Assembly: GCA_029248755.1 (NCBI GenBank) | Contig: JAQWIR010000040.1 | Location: 1-55,226, forward strand | From: Porticoccaceae bacterium | Lineage (GTDB): Bacteria; Pseudomonadota; Gammaproteobacteria; Pseudomonadales; Porticoccaceae | Direction of reading: 5' to 3' | Length of the DNA stretch: 55,226 bases | Shown here: piece by piece, positions 42,112-51,802 of the stretch | How positions within the stretch are numbered: position 1 is the first letter of the stretch | Layout: each line of letters opens with the position of its first letter | The notes under the pieces: model-generated | Told to the model about the DNA's origin: nothing | What the model saw: only the letters and a program-made list of their open reading frames with translations | The model's database searches: none | Program-made: the position numbers and the translations under genes

Positions 42112-42561
42112 ATGAACCTATCACTACTAGGCCGCAGTCATGCCCTCGCATGGATCAAATCACACTGCCTTAAAATACCCCTATTTAGCGAAGCCGTATC
42201 CGCAGGCTTCCCCTCACCAGCCCAAGACTACATCGAAAAAACCCTTGATTTAAACGAGCTCTGTATCAAGCGACCTGCCGCCACCTTCTTTGTGCGAGTC
42301 GAAGGTGACTCAATGATTCAAGCAGGTATCTATGCCGGCGATATTCTAGTGGTTGATCGTTCAGTGACCGCCGAACACAGGGATACAGTTATCGTCGCCA
42401 TTCATGGTGAAATGACCGTTAAAGAACTAGAGTTGCGCCCAAAAGTACGCCTAGTGCCACGCAACCCAGACTATCCTGTGATAGAAATCCCCGAAGGCAC
42501 AGCACTGGATATCTTTGGCGTGGTTACTAATGTTATCCGCAATATACGCCATAAAGCCTAA
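42112..42561 (+). CDS. umuD: UmuD, SOS mutagenesis protein
   Basis: A 149-residue LexA-like S24 protease domain protein. The autocleavage site is visible as AGFPSP (Ala-Gly bond near residues 31-32), the catalytic Ser is in RVEGDSMIQAGI near residue 67, and the Lys in EMTVKELELRP near residue 104. RecA-stimulated self-cleavage would give UmuD', the Pol V subunit. It is 6 bp upstream of umuC under a LexA box. Confidence 0.95.
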   Translation: MNLSLLGRSHALAWIKSHCLKIPLFSEAVSAGFPSPAQDYIEKTLDLNELCIKRPAATFFVRVEGDSMIQAGIYAGDILVVDRSVTAEHRDTVIVAIHGEMTVKELELRPKVRLVPRNPDYPVIEIPEGTALDIFGVVTNVIRNIRHKA

Positions 42562-42567
42562 GCTAAA

Positions 42568-43839
42568 ATGACCCCTATTTTTGCCCTAGTAGACTGCAAT
42601 AACTTTTATGCCAGTTGCGAGAAATTATTCCGTCCCGATTTAGCCCATACCCCAGTGGTTGTATTATCCAACAACGATGGTTGTGTAGTGGCGCGCTCCA
42701 AAGAAGCCAAAGCCCTAGGTATAAAAATGGGCATTCCAATCTTTAAAATAAAGCAACAGATTCAGCAGCATGGCATCCAAGTATTCTCCTCAAATTACAG
42801 TCTATATGCCGATATGAGTGACCGCGTGATGCGAACCCTAGAAGATATGGCACCAAGGGTTGAGATTTATTCCATTGATGAAGCATTCTTAGACCTTACC
42901 GGCATTCAGTCGGCTGTATCACTGATTGATTTTGGCCGGCAAGTAAAACACACCATTGATCGCTGGATAGGCATTACCGTCTGTGTCGGAATAGGGCCCA
43001 CCAAAACCCTCGCCAAGCTCGCCAATCACGCCGCCAAAAAATATACAGCAACCCAAGGCGTAGTCGATTTAACTGACCGCAAAAGACAGCGCAAACTATT
43101 AGCCCTAACCCCAGTGCAAGATATTTGGGGTGTGGGGCGCAGATTGTCAGCGCGCCTGCAAGCCATGGGGATACATACAGCACTTGATCTAGCTGATACC
43201 TCAGCCAAATCAATACGTCAGCATTTTTCTGTAGTATTAGAGCGCACCCAAAGAGAGCTCAATGGCGAACCCTGTATCCAACTAGAGCAAATACCGCCTA
43301 CCAAAAAGCAGATTATCTGCAGTCGCTCCTTTGGAGCCAGAGTCACTAGCCGTATACAGATGGGCCAAGCCCTGTGCGAGCATGTCACGCGAGCCGCAGA
43401 AAAGTTGCGCAAAGAACAACAACAGACCAAGCTATTAACAGTGTTTATTCGCACCAGCCCCTATCAAAATAATACACCCCAATATAGCAACGCCCTGAGT
43501 GCACAACTATCACGCCCCAGTGACGATACCCGCGACCTTATTCAGTTATCCATGAGCCTGCTCGATCAACTATGGCGCGACGGCTACCACTACGCAAAAG
43601 CCGGTGTTGTACTCTCGGATTTCTATGATATTGGCACCTATCAAGCAGAGTTATTTGATCAGCCTTCAACCCATACAAACAGCCGCCAACTAATGAATGT
43701 AGTCGATACAATAAATCACAGTGGTCGAGGTCAAGTATTCTTTGCCAGACAAGGCGTAAAAAAAAGCTGGGCAATGAAACGCGAGCATTTATCACCAGCC
43801 TATACAACTCGTTGGAATGGGTTAATACAAGTGAATTAA
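42568..43839 (+). CDS. umuC: UmuC, catalytic subunit of DNA polymerase V
   Basis: A 423-residue Y-family translesion DNA polymerase. Catalytic carboxylates are in FALVDCNNFYASCEKLFRP and IYSIDEAFLDLT. GIGPTKTLAKLANHAAKK is the palm/thumb motif, and VWGVGRR-type HhH is present as DIWGVGRRLSARLQAMG. The little-finger region and UmuC C-terminal domain (QVFFARQGVKKSWAMKRE) complete the normal length. An 8-bp inverted repeat (43826-43849) overlaps the stop but lacks a T-run. Confidence 0.96.
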   Translation: MTPIFALVDCNNFYASCEKLFRPDLAHTPVVVLSNNDGCVVARSKEAKALGIKMGIPIFKIKQQIQQHGIQVFSSNYSLYADMSDRVMRTLEDMAPRVEIYSIDEAFLDLTGIQSAVSLIDFGRQVKHTIDRWIGITVCVGIGPTKTLAKLANHAAKKYTATQGVVDLTDRKRQRKLLALTPVQDIWGVGRRLSARLQAMGIHTALDLADTSAKSIRQHFSVVLERTQRELNGEPCIQLEQIPPTKKQIICSRSFGARVTSRIQMGQALCEHVTRAAEKLRKEQQQTKLLTVFIRTSPYQNNTPQYSNALSAQLSRPSDDTRDLIQLSMSLLDQLWRDGYHYAKAGVVLSDFYDIGTYQAELFDQPSTHTNSRQLMNVVDTINHSGRGQVFFARQGVKKSWAMKREHLSPAYTTRWNGLIQVN

Positions 43840-44388
43840 GGCACTTGTAACATCAGCAAAAAAACATAAATAATAGTAAAAAATTATTTTTTAGCTAAAA
43901 ATAGCTCAAGCCTAGAGCCAGCAAAACATAGAGCAAAAAAACGCCGTAGCCCAGTCAATTCAATAAAGAATAGATTACACCAATCGACAGCAAAATAATG
44001 GAAAGTCCAAAAATGCTTTGCTACTTTTTAGGAAGTAAAGTTTGATTGTAGCGCCCCAAAAAGTTTACTAAACAGGAGAAGGACTTCCAGAATTGTAATC
44101 TAGGGCAAAAGTTAAATTGGAAGGGATGCCAATGTGTTTAACTGATCAAAGTACATTTAATGGGATATTATTTCTAATATCCACCTATAGGCCCTGTTTA
44201 TCGCGTGGCCAGACTTTGTCTTTATCTACCCAAAACCCTTTCTATTTTGCCGTTGACCTCTGCTTATTTGAGTGTTTAGCCGGTAGCAATCCAACGTAAA
44301 TCACGCAGTAGCAACGCTCGAATAGCAAGGCCCTGCTCCATCCATATTGCATGGCCTGAAAAGGCATATTTGATAGAGGTATCTCACC
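43840..44388. other. 549-bp AT-rich intergenic region upstream of the giant protein
   Basis: No convincing gene is seen between umuC and the giant protein. The first 300 bp are very A-rich. GGATATTA-TTTC-TAATATCC forms a perfect 8-bp hairpin at 44163-44182. A 60-codon open frame at 44117-44299 has no ribosome-binding site or recognisable family. The stretch 44183-44388 is less AT-rich and contains protein-like stop-interrupted reading on the minus strand, so it may be decayed sequence. Any promoter of the giant gene must lie here, but none stands out. Confidence 0.4.
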
Positions 44389-47300
44389 ATGGAAAATATT
44401 AACGCACATTTAACTTCAAGACTTACATTAATACGATATCTATTGGCCCCTTTGGTTTTAGCTTTAAGCTTTAGTGTTACAGCTGAAAACAAAGATCAAT
44501 CGGAGGTGAACGACCGATGGGAATCATCAGCATTGAATACACGTTATGGAGATAATCCACGTTATGCTTTTGAGGTTAAAAATTCGGCTATTATAGATAT
44601 GAGGCTTGAAAACAAGACATTTTGTGGAGGAGGTGCTGGGGCGGACCCCTACCTAATTCTACTAAATGAGTCAGGTGACGCACTTGGAAAAAATGATGAC
44701 TGGGATGCGGATAATGTACCTAATGATAAAGTAACAAACTGCTATTTAAATTCAAGAATTATTAGATATTTACCAAAAGGCAATTACATATTGGTTGCTG
44801 CGACATATCGTTCGGGGGATAGTGGTGATTTTGTAGCTAGCATTAGGGGCCCCAGAAATAGCATTTCAGCGTTACAATCTGAGGCTGAGCAATTTTCATG
44901 CACAGAATCATGGAATGAGTCTGGCGGTAAAAGCATAGGAAGTGAAAAAAATCCAAAATTCAAATTTCATCTTAATGAAAAAGCACAAGTAAAAATCGAT
45001 CTAACATCCTCAGCAGATACTTATTTATATCTGTATTCAGATAGCTCAGAATATCCGTCTTTACAAAATCCAATAAAAGATGATGATGGTGGTCAGGGTT
45101 ACAACTCACGAATAAATCAAGAGTTGGACATTGGAAGCTACACAGTGATTGCGGCAACTTACTGGTTTGGCGTCAGTGCTAATTTTGATTTATCAGTTAC
45201 GTCAAAGGAATCTATTGAATTAAGATGCGAAGAAGAACAGAAGGCTCAGGATGCTTTTACTGCTGGCGATGACCGAACTATACAATATGAACCTAATGGT
45301 TCTTATACCCAGCAGGCCACAGGTGGAAAAGGAAATGGGGAAATAACTTATAACAGTTCTAACCAGGAGTTTAGCGTCGATGCCAATGGTGAGGTAATTT
45401 ACCAGAATGCAGGAACAACCACAATTACAGCAACCATTGAAGGTGATAATCAATACCTGGGGGGAAGTGACCAATACGTGCTCACTGTAGAGCCAGCACC
45501 CCAAGCGAATTTCGATTTGGGTGATGATCACACTGTAGAGTATAGTCATGATGGCAAATTGACCCGACAGGCTTCTGGCGGTAGTGGTGTTGGACAAATA
45601 AGTTACAGCAGTTCAGCTCCAAGTATTGCAACAGTTAACAATAATGGAGTAGTTACATTTAAAAATGCAGGTGTTGTAGCTATTACAGCTACAAAAGCAG
45701 CCAGTCAAAATTACCTTTCAGCCCAAGACTCGTTCAAATTAGAGATTTCAAAAAGTCAAGAGCGCATTAGTTTTGGTTCAAGCGGAACTGACAATGTTAA
45801 AGTTACAACTTCTCGCTCGTCTTTCACGAGAAAAATTGCAACACCTAATCGCCATGTTACTTACCGCATTTATCGTGAACAACCGTCCGCAGCACTTTTT
45901 TCAATGGATAATGTCAGTAAGGGTAAGGTCTCTTTTAATAATGCTACTGGCCGGATCATGGTTTGTGCTCACTCATTAGACAGTCATAAATATGTGAATT
46001 CAAGTGCTTGTTATAACTTATATGTAGAAAAGCGGCATAGGGAAAACTTTGAGTTCAAAGGGAGCCCCGAAATTAACTGGAATAGCGATGATAAACCCAT
46101 AACCAAAACAATAATAGATTGGCCTAGTGTAGTTTATTCTGTGGATAGATCAGATCTTGCAACTGTAGACAACAAAGGAATGGTAACAATAACAAATCCT
46201 AAACAAGCTGAAGGTCAAGTGATTAAAGTTACAGCACAGAAGCAGGAAGATATGAATTATAAAATGTCAACCGCAAGCTATAACATAAATGTGCTAGTTG
46301 AAGCTAAAGACTCGGATCGCGAAAATGCTAACACTACATTGCCGGATTGGGCTTATACCCAGACTAACTATACAATCACTAAATTTAGTGATGAAAAGCC
46401 ATTTATAATTAACCAAGTGTTTAAGGGGATAGAAGAACAATTCAAAAACAATTCCGGAATAATAAGTTACACGCTAAAAAACGGCGAGAGCATTAAACTT
46501 GATAAAGATGGAAGAGTTGAAATAAAAACCTCTGGAACAAGCATAGTTGAAATAGCTAGAGGCTTGGGTGCTAATAGTTCAGTCACAATAAGGGTGGATA
46601 TTCTTGATTCCAATGATAAATTCACATTTAACGATGATGCTAAGGTAAATATTAGTGATAAAACTTATAAGATTAAATGGCATCCTGGTCACGCCACAAA
46701 TAAACAAATTTCACTTTACTACTCACTCCGGAAACTTGAAACGTACAGTGATCATTATTTCCATAGGTATTATCATTACTGGCAATTGCTGCCTATAAAG
46801 GGGGCAGAAAATATAGCTGCTAAGCAGGGTGAATTTACCTGGGACACATCAAAAATCCCAGAGGGTGAATACTATATTGTTGCCAAATATCAAAAATATT
46901 CCCGTGAGTACTTCAAAAATCACTCATGGGGCAAAGATATTAAAGATAGTTTGGGGATTGTTGCCGAGAATTCTAATAAGTTGATTGTTGAACATGATCA
47001 TGGTTTTGCCAAAGATTGTTCAAAATTATTTAACGATCCCTATTACACTGATGGTGAAGAAACGCGAAGTTCTCTTTATAATAGTAGAAATTTATGTGAA
47101 TCAGAGAGGGGATTTGCTTACATACATCCAGATGATGGACGAATTGTTACTTGGAATCAAAAGGTCCCATATACTTCTGTCCCTGGTGTTTTGAGGGAAG
47201 GAAACTATGGTTACAAAAAGATTTACCCATACAGCCGCTATGGTTATGTTGCCTTTAAAATAGAGGGCGGTAATAGCCAAATAAAAGCTTGGGGTCATTC

Positions 47301-50013
47301 TAATTATTCAGAAAATATTAAGGGTGAAATTACAGCAATAGAGGCCATATACTTCAGCAACTACTACAGGAGCCCCCGAGCATTAGGTCTTATGCTAAGA
47401 ATGAAAGATGGCACTGCTCGAGCTGTTGGTAGTTGCCTACCACCATTAACTTGTAAGGTTCAGAATATAAATAAACCAGTTATTGGTGTTGATGCAGCAA
47501 GACCCATTGATCCCAAAACTGAGTACTATGGTGTGAACGGTTTTACAAAGCACTACGAAAATAGAGAACTATTTATTAGTGTAAAAGACAATGGTCATGC
47601 CAGTATTTACGATGCAACTGCTTCAAAGACGAAAGTGCAGTGGACCGGTTTTTCTGATTTTGGCCCTGAGGTAAAAATATTTGGCAATGGACGCACAGGT
47701 ATGGTTGCGCTCAAGCGTCACAGGGAATTCCAATCTATAACTTTTAGTGACCCCTGGCTGACTTACACAGATGGTGTTACGTCTGTTTTTTCGGATAGAC
47801 AACAAGAAAAAATACTTCCAGGGTCTGGTAATAAGGATGTTACTAAGATTTATTCTAATGCTGCAGCCTATGCAGCTTTAAGAAGTGATGGTTCTATTAT
47901 TACTTTTGGTAATAAAATGTGCGGAGCTGGCTCCGATTCCCCAAATCCATCAGAGACGGGTTTTGTAGCCATATACTCAAATCACTGTGGTTTTGTTGCA
48001 GTTAAAGCTAATGGTGAAATGACGTATTGGGGGGATTTTTCATATGATGAGTACTACGAAGGATTTCGTGAGCATGTCGATAATGGTGGCGAGGTTCACA
48101 GCTATGATGTTGACCTCCTTGCAATGCACCGGCAGAGTACTTCGCCAAAAAAATTAGCATTTGTTGACGCTGTAGATGAGAAATATAAAGTGCTAAACCC
48201 TGTATCTGTTGAATTGTTGTCAGATGGACAGGTGAAGGTTGATTGGACTGTTTTTCAAAATACCATAAAAAATATCTATCACGATGGTAATATCCTTTAC
48301 TCAAGCAAATCATTTGCTAATTTAGAGCCAGACCTATTTAGTGCAAATGTAGAGGGTTTTTCTCCTCGATTTACACCTGATGATAATCCATACCTATTTT
48401 TAGGCGATCTTGATTTAAATAAAACCTACTATCTGACCATGGTACTTTTGGATGCATCAGGTAAAACTGTTGCCTATACAAGAGAGTCGAAAATATCTGT
48501 GCCTAGTCTGATATTTACCGGTGATAAAAAGGCTGATCAAAGCTATGATATTAGCTGGAACTCTGAATCATTGAGTAATAATAAAATTAGCCTGTTTTAT
48601 GGTCACAATAATCGTCCAAATGGCGGAATTAAAATCGCTGATAATTTAGTAGCTAAGAGTGGGACTTTTACGTGGAACACTGCTAATTTACCTGAGGGAA
48701 ATTATTATATTTATGCCCAGTTAGATGATGTTGATCAGACAAAATATTACAGTCAAAAACCTGTAGTTATAGACCATGAACATAATATTTCGGACTGTTC
48801 ATCTTGGTATAGTTTTCCAGGAGGCAAGAACAATAGCCATATAGGTTGGTGTGAGAATATTGTAGAACTTAATGATACCGGTGAAATCAACTTTATAGCC
48901 TCCAATGTTACTCCATTTGAAAATAATTCTTCAGGTGCTGTATATAAATCAATATTGCAAGGTGCAACAGGTTATTCAGTAGAAACCGATAAATTTGTCC
49001 AGTGGGGTGATTATAAAGGCTCAAATCCTTCAACTAAATATGGAAATTTTGAAAGCGTTACTTCAAATAGTGATTCCTTTGCTGGATTAGATGAAAATGG
49101 CGCCATAACAGTTTGGGGCAATACCGACTTTGGAGGTAGTCCTGATGATGCCCCAAATGATCAGGGTTACACAGCCATAGCTTCTACAGGATTTGCCTTT
49201 GCTGCCTTGAAAGACGATGGAATCACCTCTTGGGGTTGGAATATAGGCTCGGCAGAGGGGTTTAAAACCCTTAAAGGTAATAATTTTACGCAGATATATT
49301 CTAACAATAATACCTTTGCTGCAATGGATGATGATGGAAAAATTACCACTTGGGGAGGCCCTTTAAATCATGGTAATGGTGATGGTCCAGCAGATGGTGG
49401 TTATATTGCAATAGCCTCCAGTGACGCAGGCTTTACTGCAATTAAAGCCGATGGATCTACAATTTTTTGGGGTAATGACTTTTTCATTGGTGGTAAATTT
49501 GTTCGACCTTTGGAAAAATATGAGGACAATGTTGAAATATTCGCCAATGATAATGCATTTGCGGCCTTGTCTAGTGAGGGTCAAATTAGTATCTGGGGGT
49601 CCTCGTTAAGCGGTGGCTCTTGGTTATTAGCAGCTTCAGAGGATTCATCAGGTATACATAGTGAGCCTTCAATTAAAAAAGGCTTTCAATCAATAGCGGC
49701 TACTGAAAGTGCATTCGCAGCGCTTAATCATGATGGTTCAATTTTATCTTGGGGAAATTGTTCTGATACTAACTGTGACGGCTTGGAGCCAACACAGGGT
49801 GTGTTCACCAAAATTTATTCAAATGCTAAGGCTTTTGCGGCTCTAGATAAGGATGGATTTATTAAGTCTTGGGGAGATGAGGATTGCGGAGGTGGAGGTT
49901 TTGGCGCACCAGACGATGGCGATGGTGGCTATATCTCAATTTATTCCGGTAGGTGCACCTTTATTGCCTACAAGGCAGATGGTTCCACAAAAATTTGGGG
50001 TAAGGTTGATTAA
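44389..50013 (+). CDS. Giant secreted multidomain protein with Ig-like and RCC1-like repeats
   Basis: An 1874-residue secreted protein of unknown function. A signal peptide is cleaved near SVTA-EN (residue 32). Two PPC-like domains follow (about 38-158 and 170-271), each with DxYL, a Gly/Asp turn, NSRI and GxYxxxAATY. About five Ig-like (BID_2-type) domains span 283-740. A module at about 744-866 (TYKIKWHPG, GEFTWDTSKIPEGEYYIVA) leads via VEHDH and DCS into a first, degenerate RCC1-like propeller (about 870-1248). A fibronectin-like segment lies at about 1258-1375. A second copy of the module (SYDISWNS, GTFTWNTANLPEGNYYIYA, IDHEH, DCS) leads into a second propeller with eight clear FAALxxDGxIxxWG repeats (about 1535-1874). 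No C-terminal sorting signal, transmembrane anchor or catalytic motif is visible. It ends before a strong terminator, so it is probably monocistronic. Confidence 0.9.
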   Translation: MENINAHLTSRLTLIRYLLAPLVLALSFSVTAENKDQSEVNDRWESSALNTRYGDNPRYAFEVKNSAIIDMRLENKTFCGGGAGADPYLILLNESGDALGKNDDWDADNVPNDKVTNCYLNSRIIRYLPKGNYILVAATYRSGDSGDFVASIRGPRNSISALQSEAEQFSCTESWNESGGKSIGSEKNPKFKFHLNEKAQVKIDLTSSADTYLYLYSDSSEYPSLQNPIKDDDGGQGYNSRINQELDIGSYTVIAATYWFGVSANFDLSVTSKESIELRCEEEQKAQDAFTAGDDRTIQYEPNGSYTQQATGGKGNGEITYNSSNQEFSVDANGEVIYQNAGTTTITATIEGDNQYLGGSDQYVLTVEPAPQANFDLGDDHTVEYSHDGKLTRQASGGSGVGQISYSSSAPSIATVNNNGVVTFKNAGVVAITATKAASQNYLSAQDSFKLEISKSQERISFGSSGTDNVKVTTSRSSFTRKIATPNRHVTYRIYREQPSAALFSMDNVSKGKVSFNNATGRIMVCAHSLDSHKYVNSSACYNLYVEKRHRENFEFKGSPEINWNSDDKPITKTIIDWPSVVYSVDRSDLATVDNKGMVTITNPKQAEGQVIKVTAQKQEDMNYKMSTASYNINVLVEAKDSDRENANTTLPDWAYTQTNYTITKFSDEKPFIINQVFKGIEEQFKNNSGIISYTLKNGESIKLDKDGRVEIKTSGTSIVEIARGLGANSSVTIRVDILDSNDKFTFNDDAKVNISDKTYKIKWHPGHATNKQISLYYSLRKLETYSDHYFHRYYHYWQLLPIKGAENIAAKQGEFTWDTSKIPEGEYYIVAKYQKYSREYFKNHSWGKDIKDSLGIVAENSNKLIVEHDHGFAKDCSKLFNDPYYTDGEETRSSLYNSRNLCESERGFAYIHPDDGRIVTWNQKVPYTSVPGVLREGNYGYKKIYPYSRYGYVAFKIEGGNSQIKAWGHSNYSENIKGEITAIEAIYFSNYYRSPRALGLMLRMKDGTARAVGSCLPPLTCKVQNINKPVIGVDAARPIDPKTEYYGVNGFTKHYENRELFISVKDNGHASIYDATASKTKVQWTGFSDFGPEVKIFGNGRTGMVALKRHREFQSITFSDPWLTYTDGVTSVFSDRQQEKILPGSGNKDVTKIYSNAAAYAALRSDGSIITFGNKMCGAGSDSPNPSETGFVAIYSNHCGFVAVKANGEMTYWGDFSYDEYYEGFREHVDNGGEVHSYDVDLLAMHRQSTSPKKLAFVDAVDEKYKVLNPVSVELLSDGQVKVDWTVFQNTIKNIYHDGNILYSSKSFANLEPDLFSANVEGFSPRFTPDDNPYLFLGDLDLNKTYYLTMVLLDASGKTVAYTRESKISVPSLIFTGDKKADQSYDISWNSESLSNNKISLFYGHNNRPNGGIKIADNLVAKSGTFTWNTANLPEGNYYIYAQLDDVDQTKYYSQKPVVIDHEHNISDCSSWYSFPGGKNNSHIGWCENIVELNDTGEINFIASNVTPFENNSSGAVYKSILQGATGYSVETDKFVQWGDYKGSNPSTKYGNFESVTSNSDSFAGLDENGAITVWGNTDFGGSPDDAPNDQGYTAIASTGFAFAALKDDGITSWGWNIGSAEGFKTLKGNNFTQIYSNNNTFAAMDDDGKITTWGGPLNHGNGDGPADGGYIAIASSDAGFTAIKADGSTIFWGNDFFIGGKFVRPLEKYEDNVEIFANDNAFAALSSEGQISIWGSSLSGGSWLLAASEDSSGIHSEPSIKKGFQSIAATESAFAALNHDGSILSWGNCSDTNCDGLEPTQGVFTKIYSNAKAFAALDKDGFIKSWGDEDCGGGGFGAPDDGDGGYISIYSGRCTFIAYKADGSTKIWGKVD

Positions 50014-50092
50014 AACTACCAAAGCCATGCTGAAAAATACTACAAGCAACTTTTATGAGTATTTTTAGAGCTGAAGTTGGCAGAAGCGTTAT

Positions 50093-50120
50093 AGGGCGAT
50101 CACTAGGTCGCCCTTTTTTA
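50093..50120 (+). terminator. Intrinsic terminator after the giant protein
   Basis: AGGGCGA (50093-50099) pairs with TCGCCCT (50108-50114) around an 8-nt loop and is followed directly by a T-run. It lies about 80 bp after the stop and upstream of prfC. Confidence 0.85.
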
Positions 50121-50230
50121 TTTTAAAAGGAAACTTTGCGCTAGTTTTACCCCCCTTGTTTAATGATTAGCTGAAACCCTTTTGCGCCGAGGGTATAATG
50201 CGCGGCTTTTAACCTTTGTGAATAATCTAC

Positions 50231-51802
50231 ATGACCCAGCCAGTTTCTGATCGGCGTACCTTTGCCATTATTTCTCACCCCGATGCGGGTAAGACCACTA
50301 TTACTGAAAAGTTACTGCTGTTGGGTAATTTGATTCAGGTGGCGGGTACGGTTAAGGGTCGAAAGAGCGACCGCCATGCGACTTCTGATTGGATGACCAT
50401 GGAAAAGGAGCGGGGTATTTCGGTCACTTCATCGGTGATGCAGTTCCCTTATCGCGATTGCACGGTTAACCTTTTGGATACACCGGGGCACGAGGATTTT
50501 TCTGAGGATACTTACCGCACTTTAACGGCGGTGGATTCTTCGTTGATGGTTATCGATGGCGCTAAGGGTGTGGAAAAAAGAACCATCAAACTAATGGAAG
50601 TTTGCCGTTTGCGCGATACGCCTATTCTTTCATTTATTAATAAGATGGATCGTGATATTCGTGAGCCCATCGATCTGCTGGACGAAATCGAAGATGTACT
50701 AAAGATTAAAGCAGCGCCCATTAACTGGCCTATTGGTATGGGTCGGGGTTTTCGCGGGGTGTATAACCTGTATACCGATACTATTCATGTGTATGTGCAG
50801 GGTAAGGGCCATCAGTTGATGGATGATATTCAGATTAAAGGCTTGGAGTCCCCTGAGGCGCGTGAGGCATTGGGTGATTTTGCCGATGATGTACTAGAAG
50901 AATTGGAGCTGGTTAAGGGCGCTACTCATCAGTTTGAGTTGGATGAGTTTTTAGCGGGTAAGTTAACGCCGGTATTTTTTGGTACTGCATTGGGTAATTT
51001 TGGCGTGCGCGAGCTATTGGATGATTTTGTGCGCTGGGCGCCGCCGCCTCAGCCGCGAGAAACCTCGGTTAGGCAGGTGCAGGCCAGCGATAAACAATTC
51101 AGTGGCTTTGTATTTAAAATTCAGGCCAATATGGACCCTAAGCACCGCGATCGTATTGCTTTTATGCGTATTTGTTCGGGCACCTATACCAAGGGTATGA
51201 AAATGAAGCATGTGCGTACGGGTAAGGATATGCGGGTATCCGACGCCTTTAGCTTTAAGGCGGGGGAGCGTATTTCGGTTGAGCAGGCGGTGGCGGGGGA
51301 TATTATCGGCTTGCATAACCATGGTTCTATTCAGATTGGCGATACCTTTACTGCGGGCGAAGACTTAAAATTTGGGGGTATTCCCCATTTTGCCCCTGAA
51401 CTATTCAAGCGTATTCGTCTTAAAGACCCGCTTAGAGCAAAACAGTTACAAAATGGTATTCGCCAGTTATCCGAAGAGGGCAGTACTCAGGTATTTTTCC
51501 CATTTAAAAATAATGACATTATTGTGGGTGCTGTAGGGCAGTTGCAGTTTGATGTGGTGGCGTTTCGGTTAAAAGAAGAATATGGTGTTGAGGCTATTTA
51601 TGAGCCCGTCAATGTGTACACTGCACGTTGGGCTGAAGCGGACGATGATAAAAAAATAGAGGCCCTTAGAAATAAGGCGGATGATAACTTGGCGATTGAT
51701 GGCGGTGGGCACTTAACCTACCTAGCGCCAACCCGAGTTAATCTGTCCCTTGCTGAGGAGCGGTTCCCCGATATTGATTTTAGGTCAACTCGGGAACATT
51801 AA
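50231..51802 (+). CDS. prfC: Peptide chain release factor 3
   Basis: A 523-residue translational GTPase that recycles RF1/RF2 after peptide release. The P-loop is [16 protein letters not shown] (near residue 16), the switch region [21 protein letters not shown]3 is [16 protein letters not shown], and G4 is [10 protein letters not shown]3-specific C-terminal blocks include [20 protein letters not shown]. It follows the terminator of the giant gene and starts a plus-strand run to 53836. Confidence 0.98.

Follow-up and report, generated by a model that had tools for sequence, protein, structure and literature searches.

The window analysed here, the whole stretch of 55,226 nucleotides from contig JAQWIR010000040.1 of a Porticoccaceae bacterium (assembly GCA_029248755.1), carries a gene that stands alone between umuC and prfC and encodes a multidomain protein of 1874 amino acids (aa; Table 1). 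In this protein, the order of an immunoglobulin (Ig)-like module, a junction in which the residues DCS are followed by a cysteine, and RCC1-type blades occurs twice. The first-pass annotation of this DNA had read the repetition as a large internal duplication that builds two beta-propellers. Our comparisons showed that the modules and their order are alike in the two blocks, and that the similarity is far above that of shuffled sequences at both block ends. The block was probably duplicated long ago, with the C-terminal copy keeping consensus blades and the inner copy eroding.

Two copies of one block

The motifs named in the annotation are all present, with EFTW at residue 815 and TFTW at 1426, PEGEYYI at 824 and PEGNYYI at 1435, EHDH at 868 and DHEH at 1462, and DCS at 876 and 1469, where it had been placed. 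The single offset of about 594 residues holds for the junction (593-594), but not for the Ig motifs (611) or the last two blades (655-656). Ig1 (744-880) aligned to Ig2 (1372-1475) with a Smith-Waterman score of 134, as compared to 30.6 +/- 5.3 (maximum 50) for 500 shuffled sequences, none of which reached it; shuffles throughout this work preserve composition only. This score stands out against the rest of the protein, since Ig2 gave no comparable match to residues 1-743 (36, reached by 300/500 shuffles) or 881-1371 (42, reached by 42/500). Regions 876-1290 and 1469-1874 scored 164 (shuffles 41.1 +/- 5.9, maximum 76, 0/500 reaching it), and the last two blades of both blocks scored 163 against a shuffled maximum of 52. 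BLASTP aligned residues 741-1250 with 1351-1874 over a long stretch (1e-16, 22% identity), and in the last two blades, over 65 aa, identity reached 48%. Ig2 passes the Pfam Kre9_KNH cut-off (PF10342; 8e-8, 33.4 bits, cut-off 24.6), and Ig1 falls under it (17.4 bits, E 0.0079). Because Ig1 resembles Ig2 while remaining below that cut-off, "Kre9-like" denotes likeness only in its case. In the AlphaFold model of Ig2, the 10-residue mean of the predicted local distance difference test (pLDDT) was 57-80 over residues 1374-1443.

Propeller 2 is of the RCC1 type. A blade hidden Markov model (HMM), for which 67 blades of six viral-contig loci served as the training set and the window was left out, found the eight crisp repeats that had been described, at residues 1559-1871, each with an independent E-value (iE) below 1e-4. 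RCC1_2 (PF13540) matched in five stretches with 43 bits (cut-off 22), and WD40_RLD (PF25390) with 61.7 bits, under its cut-off of 150. The closest solved structures by sequence were BLIP-II (from 7e-6) and then RCC1 (0.02); the predicted model resembles BLIP-II/RCC1, and BLIP-II, UVR8 and RCC1 were matched in the PDB by sequence and fold. The mean identity among its blades was 35.7% for protein and 48.9% for DNA. By the same measure, blades were more alike in five of six other propellers, namely one on contig 43 of the same genome (79.5% and 84.7%), one in viral-contig locus L076 (77.0% and 82.9%) and three others from viral contigs (43-57% and 57-67%); a propeller in genome G047 gave 35.4% and 48.0%. 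The low identities indicate that propeller 2 has been neither recently amplified nor homogenised. They speak against the suggestion that it is still being homogenised, as do the DNA repeats, and we rejected it.

The first propeller, most likely eroded, could be recovered in part: two of its blades are recognisable and it is in register with a relative described below, while the AlphaFold models leave the rest unsettled. The blade HMM found two blades at 1151-1215 and half a blade at 915-922 (iE 0.12), as compared to 0.01 domains per sequence at iE < 0.01 in 100 shuffles of block 1, and WD40_RLD matched at E 0.0038. Blade-like units lie at about 915-922, 941-969, 983-1014, 1050-1075, 1096-1120, 1151-1174 and 1192-1215. 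Residues 906-1143 aligned weakly to propeller 2 (56, reached by 7/1000 shuffles) and in register to the crisp blades at 288-480 of the relative (65, maximum of 1000 shuffles 55); later segments of the relative were less distinct (45 and 44, reached by 19/1000 and 50/1000). The alignment to residues 288-480 is the best evidence for a worn propeller 1, which on this comparison is likely, although it falls short of proof. Some fold matches of the second AlphaFold model merged blades of both propellers; they were set aside, because an alignment (A7) places the relatives' first blade on propeller 1. According to PMC9218822, RCC1/BLIP-II propellers make up 10% of the highly repetitive propeller set and amplification and decay of propellers are described as common, so on that account a worn and a fresher propeller in one protein would be unsurprising.

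The remaining domains lie before and between the blocks. The PPC match (3.9e-5, two stretches, 24.9 bits) is slightly under its cut-off of 25.9, and residues 115-149 also match Calpain_III above cut-off (24.8 vs 21). The two PPC-like domains scored 86 against each other (maximum of 300 shuffles 49). In the stalk, Big_2 passes its cut-off (1e-11), and its copies 1 and 2 scored 164 against each other (maximum of 200 shuffles 48). The linker may perhaps be a degenerate Fn3-like domain; its residues 1291-1370 gave a weak Pfam match to dCache_1 (0.13).

Table 1. Features of the gene and its borders, in window coordinates
Feature	Coordinates	Strand	Basis
umuD and umuC, left border	42112..43839	+	
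Whole gene, 1874 aa multidomain protein, probably secreted	44389..50013	+	open reading frame over 1874 codons
Probable Sec signal peptide, residues 1-32, VTA/EN	44389..44484	+	judged by eye
Two PPC-like beta domains, residues ~33-155 and 168-275	44485..45213	+	Pfam PPC, mutual alignment
Ig stalk of Big_2 domains (three stretches in Pfam, four or five domains by eye)	45253..46617	+	Pfam
Ig1, Kre9/KNH-like module, residues 744-867	46618..46989	+	Kre9_KNH under cut-off; Ig1-Ig2 alignment
Junction 1: EHDH, DCS, then C903 (possible disulfide C877-C903)	46990..47097	+	motif positions
Propeller 1 (likely), eroded, residues 904-1250	47098..48138	+	register with G063 relative, blade HMM for last two blades, low-confidence model strands
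Two clear blades of propeller 1, with C1178 and C1200	47839..48033	+	blade HMM, iE 5e-11 and 2e-6
Linker, residues 1251-1371	48139..48501	+	strands at low pLDDT
Ig2, Kre9/KNH-like module, residues 1372-1461	48502..48771	+	Kre9_KNH above cut-off
Junction 2: DHEH, DCS, then C1488 (possible disulfide C1470-C1488)	48772..48852	+	motif positions
Propeller 2 of RCC1 type (eight crisp blades, 1554-1871), with C1833 and C1856 at its last blade	48853..50010	+	Pfam, blade HMM, model
Intrinsic-terminator-like site 3' of gene	50093..50114	+	
prfC, right border	50231..51802	+	

A relative at the same site

Region 744-1874 matched five of 50 genus genomes: the genome of the window, the Porticoccaceae metagenome-assembled genome G063 (record JAQWMF010000037.1) and, for the rest, weaker matches to other RCC1 proteins or to unread places (G034; one in G018). 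The G063 gene adjoins prfC, and its contig ends inside the gene, so that 1134 residues remain and the N-terminal part is unseen. Residues 1-460 of this relative align with 583-1093 of the window protein (22.8%, 4e-13), in the order Big_2-like domain, Ig module (no Pfam match at E <= 1), EHRFGLAMDCS, a cysteine and blades. The two genes also share a last blade with a cysteine pair and a terminator-like stem, the similar stem and T run of the relative being judged by eye. The relative differs in that its visible part has one Ig-DCS block, so that the twin arrangement is seen in one protein, and in the 577 residues that separate its HMM-recognised early blades (to 452, three of them at 356-452) from its late ones (from 1030). 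Within 452-1030, blade-like motifs are visible by eye, residues 661-770 scored 71 against the relative's own early blades (shuffled maximum 50), and two stretches had no Pfam match. Over their two longest alignments the two alleles are 23-28% identical, as compared to 87-96% for neighbouring proteins. Position speaks for block 1 as the counterpart of the relative's single block. The Ig modules are about equally distant by score (Ig1-Ig2 140, Ig1-relative 126, Ig2-relative 135), which would fit a duplication at about the time when the two species separated, or earlier.

The relative also bears on the junction, which had been put forward as a His/Cys unit. The first histidine, DCS and the next cysteine are present in all three modules, and the relative has HRF in place of HxH. 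We therefore rejected a conserved His/Cys site as the unit: the second histidine is not conserved, while DCS and the following cysteine are. Because the relative loses one histidine and retains these residues, the simplest reading of the junction is a loop that is probably closed by a disulfide, with a putative pairing of neighbouring cysteines. The window protein has 18 cysteines, and pairing of neighbours (among them 877/903, 1470/1488, 1178/1200 and 1833/1856) puts eight of nine pairs within 39 residues; the relative has pairs 270/287 and 1082/1101 at corresponding places.

Further cases were sought with a profile of Ig module plus junction (A2), built from Ig1, Ig2 and the G063 module, in genome sets that each include the window's own genome and may overlap. 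It matched two of 112 family genomes at E <= 0.001 (own and G063), 5/390 order genomes at E <= 0.01 and 5/369 class genomes at E <= 0.001. Nine matches lay beyond the three modules of the profile, and eight of them end at profile position 96 or earlier. The ninth (G098, profile positions 63-125, E 0.004) was taken as chance, its frame having three stops. Thus, apart from this weak match in a stop-bearing frame, no other junction was found in the 112 family, 390 order and 369 class genomes. A pattern scan of four of the nine regions, in frames of at least 400 aa, found no RCC1 repeats and no DCS. Neither the whole protein nor propeller 2 matched phage records at E <= 1e-5, and scans of viral-contig proteins were likewise without a match; one scan of genome contigs found nothing and another one locus, the G063 gene itself. 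With the whole protein as query at E <= 1, no second relative was found in the own assembly (1.65 Mb, 88.7% complete by the tool's estimate).

Each part of the block has known counterparts. RCC1/BLIP-II propellers share the blade type of propeller 2; here, however, it caps an Ig stalk and follows a cysteine-bearing junction, its last blade has a cysteine pair, and a second, eroded copy precedes it. The resemblance to BLIP-II is one of sequence and fold and carries no functional claim. Proteins with the repeat AFAALKxDGSVVTWG (on a Shewanella oneidensis megaplasmid, in a Vibrio plasmid frame and in several viral-contig loci, L065-L076) have the same blade consensus, and the L076 protein by eye also has Big_2-like Ig repeats before its propeller. 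In contrast, neither DCS nor a Kre9-like pattern occurred in the 12 viral-contig frames scanned, some of which are cut by locus ends. Kre9/KNH-like Ig domains (PF10342) resemble Ig2 and, under the cut-off, Ig1, but here DCS and a cysteine come after. A place among bacterial fibrillar or surface adhesins would be putative: a stalk, a tip-like propeller and, by eye, a signal peptide are present, and no cell-surface anchor was recognised. The protein is thus a new arrangement of known modules, an unusual combination of ordinary building blocks.

Other large repeat proteins were seen in the same data. The window's own genome encodes a second giant protein of 2733 aa (L087 832-9033, contig 14). It combines thrombospondin-type-3-like repeats with leucine-rich repeats that look BspA-like by eye and an RCC1 region whose blades (HACAIDDGGMVCWG) are of a different type; the sequence at its end (LDIDANGSFDALTDGLIILRY...) is similar to the end of a 1151-aa RCC1 protein in L025. 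The propeller on contig 43 (L088 576-3395), part of a 939-aa protein, has eight RCC1 blades that are very much alike (mean identities 79.5% and 84.7%, as above) and is recently amplified. In G018 (L026 4664-11826), two adjacent genes each encode two RCC1 regions, mutually similar by eye, and the larger protein ends in a glycoside-hydrolase-16-like stretch (by eye). The viral-contig frame L076 11139-13268, perhaps bacterial DNA in a viral bin, has Big_2-like repeats and then a nine-blade RCC1-type propeller with blades 77% identical. A frame of at least 3014 residues with cadherin-like repeats (by eye) is present in the small G063 genome (L095, contig 65).

Occupied and empty sites between umuC and prfC

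In comparison with loci L033, L034 and L035, positions 43840-50230 are a single-gene insertion. With the four closest genomes chosen by prfC (95-97%), the site is occupied in two of five (the window and G063) and empty in three (G005, G008 and G070), where 117-133 bases separate umuC from prfC. The inserted part starts near the umuC stop and does not reach the prfC promoter; the left border is not visible in G063. In a tree of neighbouring genes, the empty G005 stands beside the occupied G063 (support 100) and the window comes next (93), which would imply either two gains or a single gain plus a loss. The G+C fraction of the gene (0.36-0.42) is below that of its surroundings (0.44-0.47). No mobile element was recognised: four translated pieces of the upstream stretch had no transposase match in Pfam, and this stretch is otherwise single-copy, with only matches of 16-25 bases elsewhere in the assembly.

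prfC was found at E <= 1e-150 in 45/50 genus genomes, and the locus was fetched for 21 of the 44 besides that of the window. None of the 17 further loci had umuC at E <= 1e-20. hemH is the neighbour of prfC in 15 of these loci, starting ~0.2-0.5 kb from it; the distance is ~2.4 kb in G056, and hemH was not found at the G023 locus. In the window, G005, G008 and G070, hemH and prfC are separated by umuDC; this part is not visible in G063.

A putative extracellular binding protein and its alternatives

The signal peptide seen by eye, the close cysteine pairs, the Ig stalk and the propellers without a recognised catalytic domain point to an extracellular binding protein. We favour, as a reasonably probable reading, a Sec-exported, adhesin-like protein that bears two copies of one structural block. 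Secretion itself is probable from the signal peptide and the cysteines. The two PPC-like domains and the Big_2 stalk would hold out two copies of a block made of a Kre9/KNH-like Ig module, a short loop (DCS...C) probably closed by a disulfide and an RCC1/BLIP-II-type propeller, the last blade of which bears a second cysteine pair. After an old duplication, the C-terminal copy would have retained consensus blades while the inner copy eroded, the blades aligned to the latter remaining crisp in the single-block relative of the sister species. The propeller faces would bind a putative ligand, and the fast change of the protein would reflect changing targets, or evasion of phages or grazers.

Several observations weigh against parts of this account. 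Propeller 1, whose ring is putative, was not confirmed by the two AlphaFold models (mean pLDDT 53 and 51, predicted template modelling scores 0.37 and 0.43). The relative's block scores higher against block 2 than against block 1 (BLAST 97 vs 62 bits), as do its early blades (165 vs 115); this would fit wear of block 1 and also block 2 as the true counterpart. The last blades score higher against each other (163) than against those of the relative (127), while the Ig modules are about equally distant, so that the two comparisons give no single age for the duplication. Because neither an outer-membrane anchor nor a C-terminal sorting domain was recognised, the protein may be periplasmic or released.

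It is possible, although unlikely, that residues 904-1150 form another beta domain and that the two RCC1 blades at 1151-1215 are all that is left as a relic. The blade HMM detects just these two at iE < 0.01, and most of 876-1150 is under pLDDT 50 in both models; however, the register with the relative's crisp blades makes an eroded propeller the most likely identity of this region. Independent recruitment of common modules would also yield two similar blocks, since the Ig signature is the Kre9/KNH consensus that matches both Ig modules (Ig1 under the cut-off), RCC1 blades are widespread and the order could arise by shuffling. Ig-only matches in other large frames and propellers of the same blade type in other contexts agree with this. 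We give it little credence, because DCS...C and the cysteine-bearing last blades, 48% identical over 65 aa, recur at the ends of both blocks, and among the sampled genomes no open frame but those of these two alleles matches the profile across its junction part.

The role of the gene and of its junction can likewise be read differently. The gene might have no lasting role and be decaying or selfish cargo that entered between umuC and prfC, diverges fast and was lost in G005. Its patchy presence, the tree and the decay of young propellers reported in PMC9218822 are in keeping with this. Yet the frame is open over 1874 codons, a terminator-like site follows both copies, the upstream pieces lack a transposase match, and DCS...C and the last-blade cysteines are kept in alleles this divergent; thus, we consider cargo improbable. 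A functional metal or catalytic His/Cys site at the junction is very improbable: HxH and DCS occur together in both copies, but the relative retains DCS and the next cysteine with HRF for HxH, and most cysteines in both proteins have a close neighbour.

Beyond the favoured reading of a secreted binding protein, a bolder idea to which we assign a low probability is that Ig module, DCS...C, blades and the cysteine pair of the last blade form a disulfide-latched propeller cassette. Cysteine pairs rather than sequence conservation would hold its ring, which would free the blades to diverge, to accept extra domains, of which the G063 relative would be an example, and to duplicate as a unit. The umuC-prfC locus would then be a hot spot that diversifies a recognition protein far faster than its neighbours.

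These findings reveal no new kind of system. If the favoured reading is true, the protein captures a late stage of propeller duplication within one chain, in which one copy has been kept and the other worn almost beyond recognition, and the single-block relative in the sister species provides a reference for the worn copy. The gene would then encode a very fast-changing, probably secreted protein in a marine lineage with small genomes.
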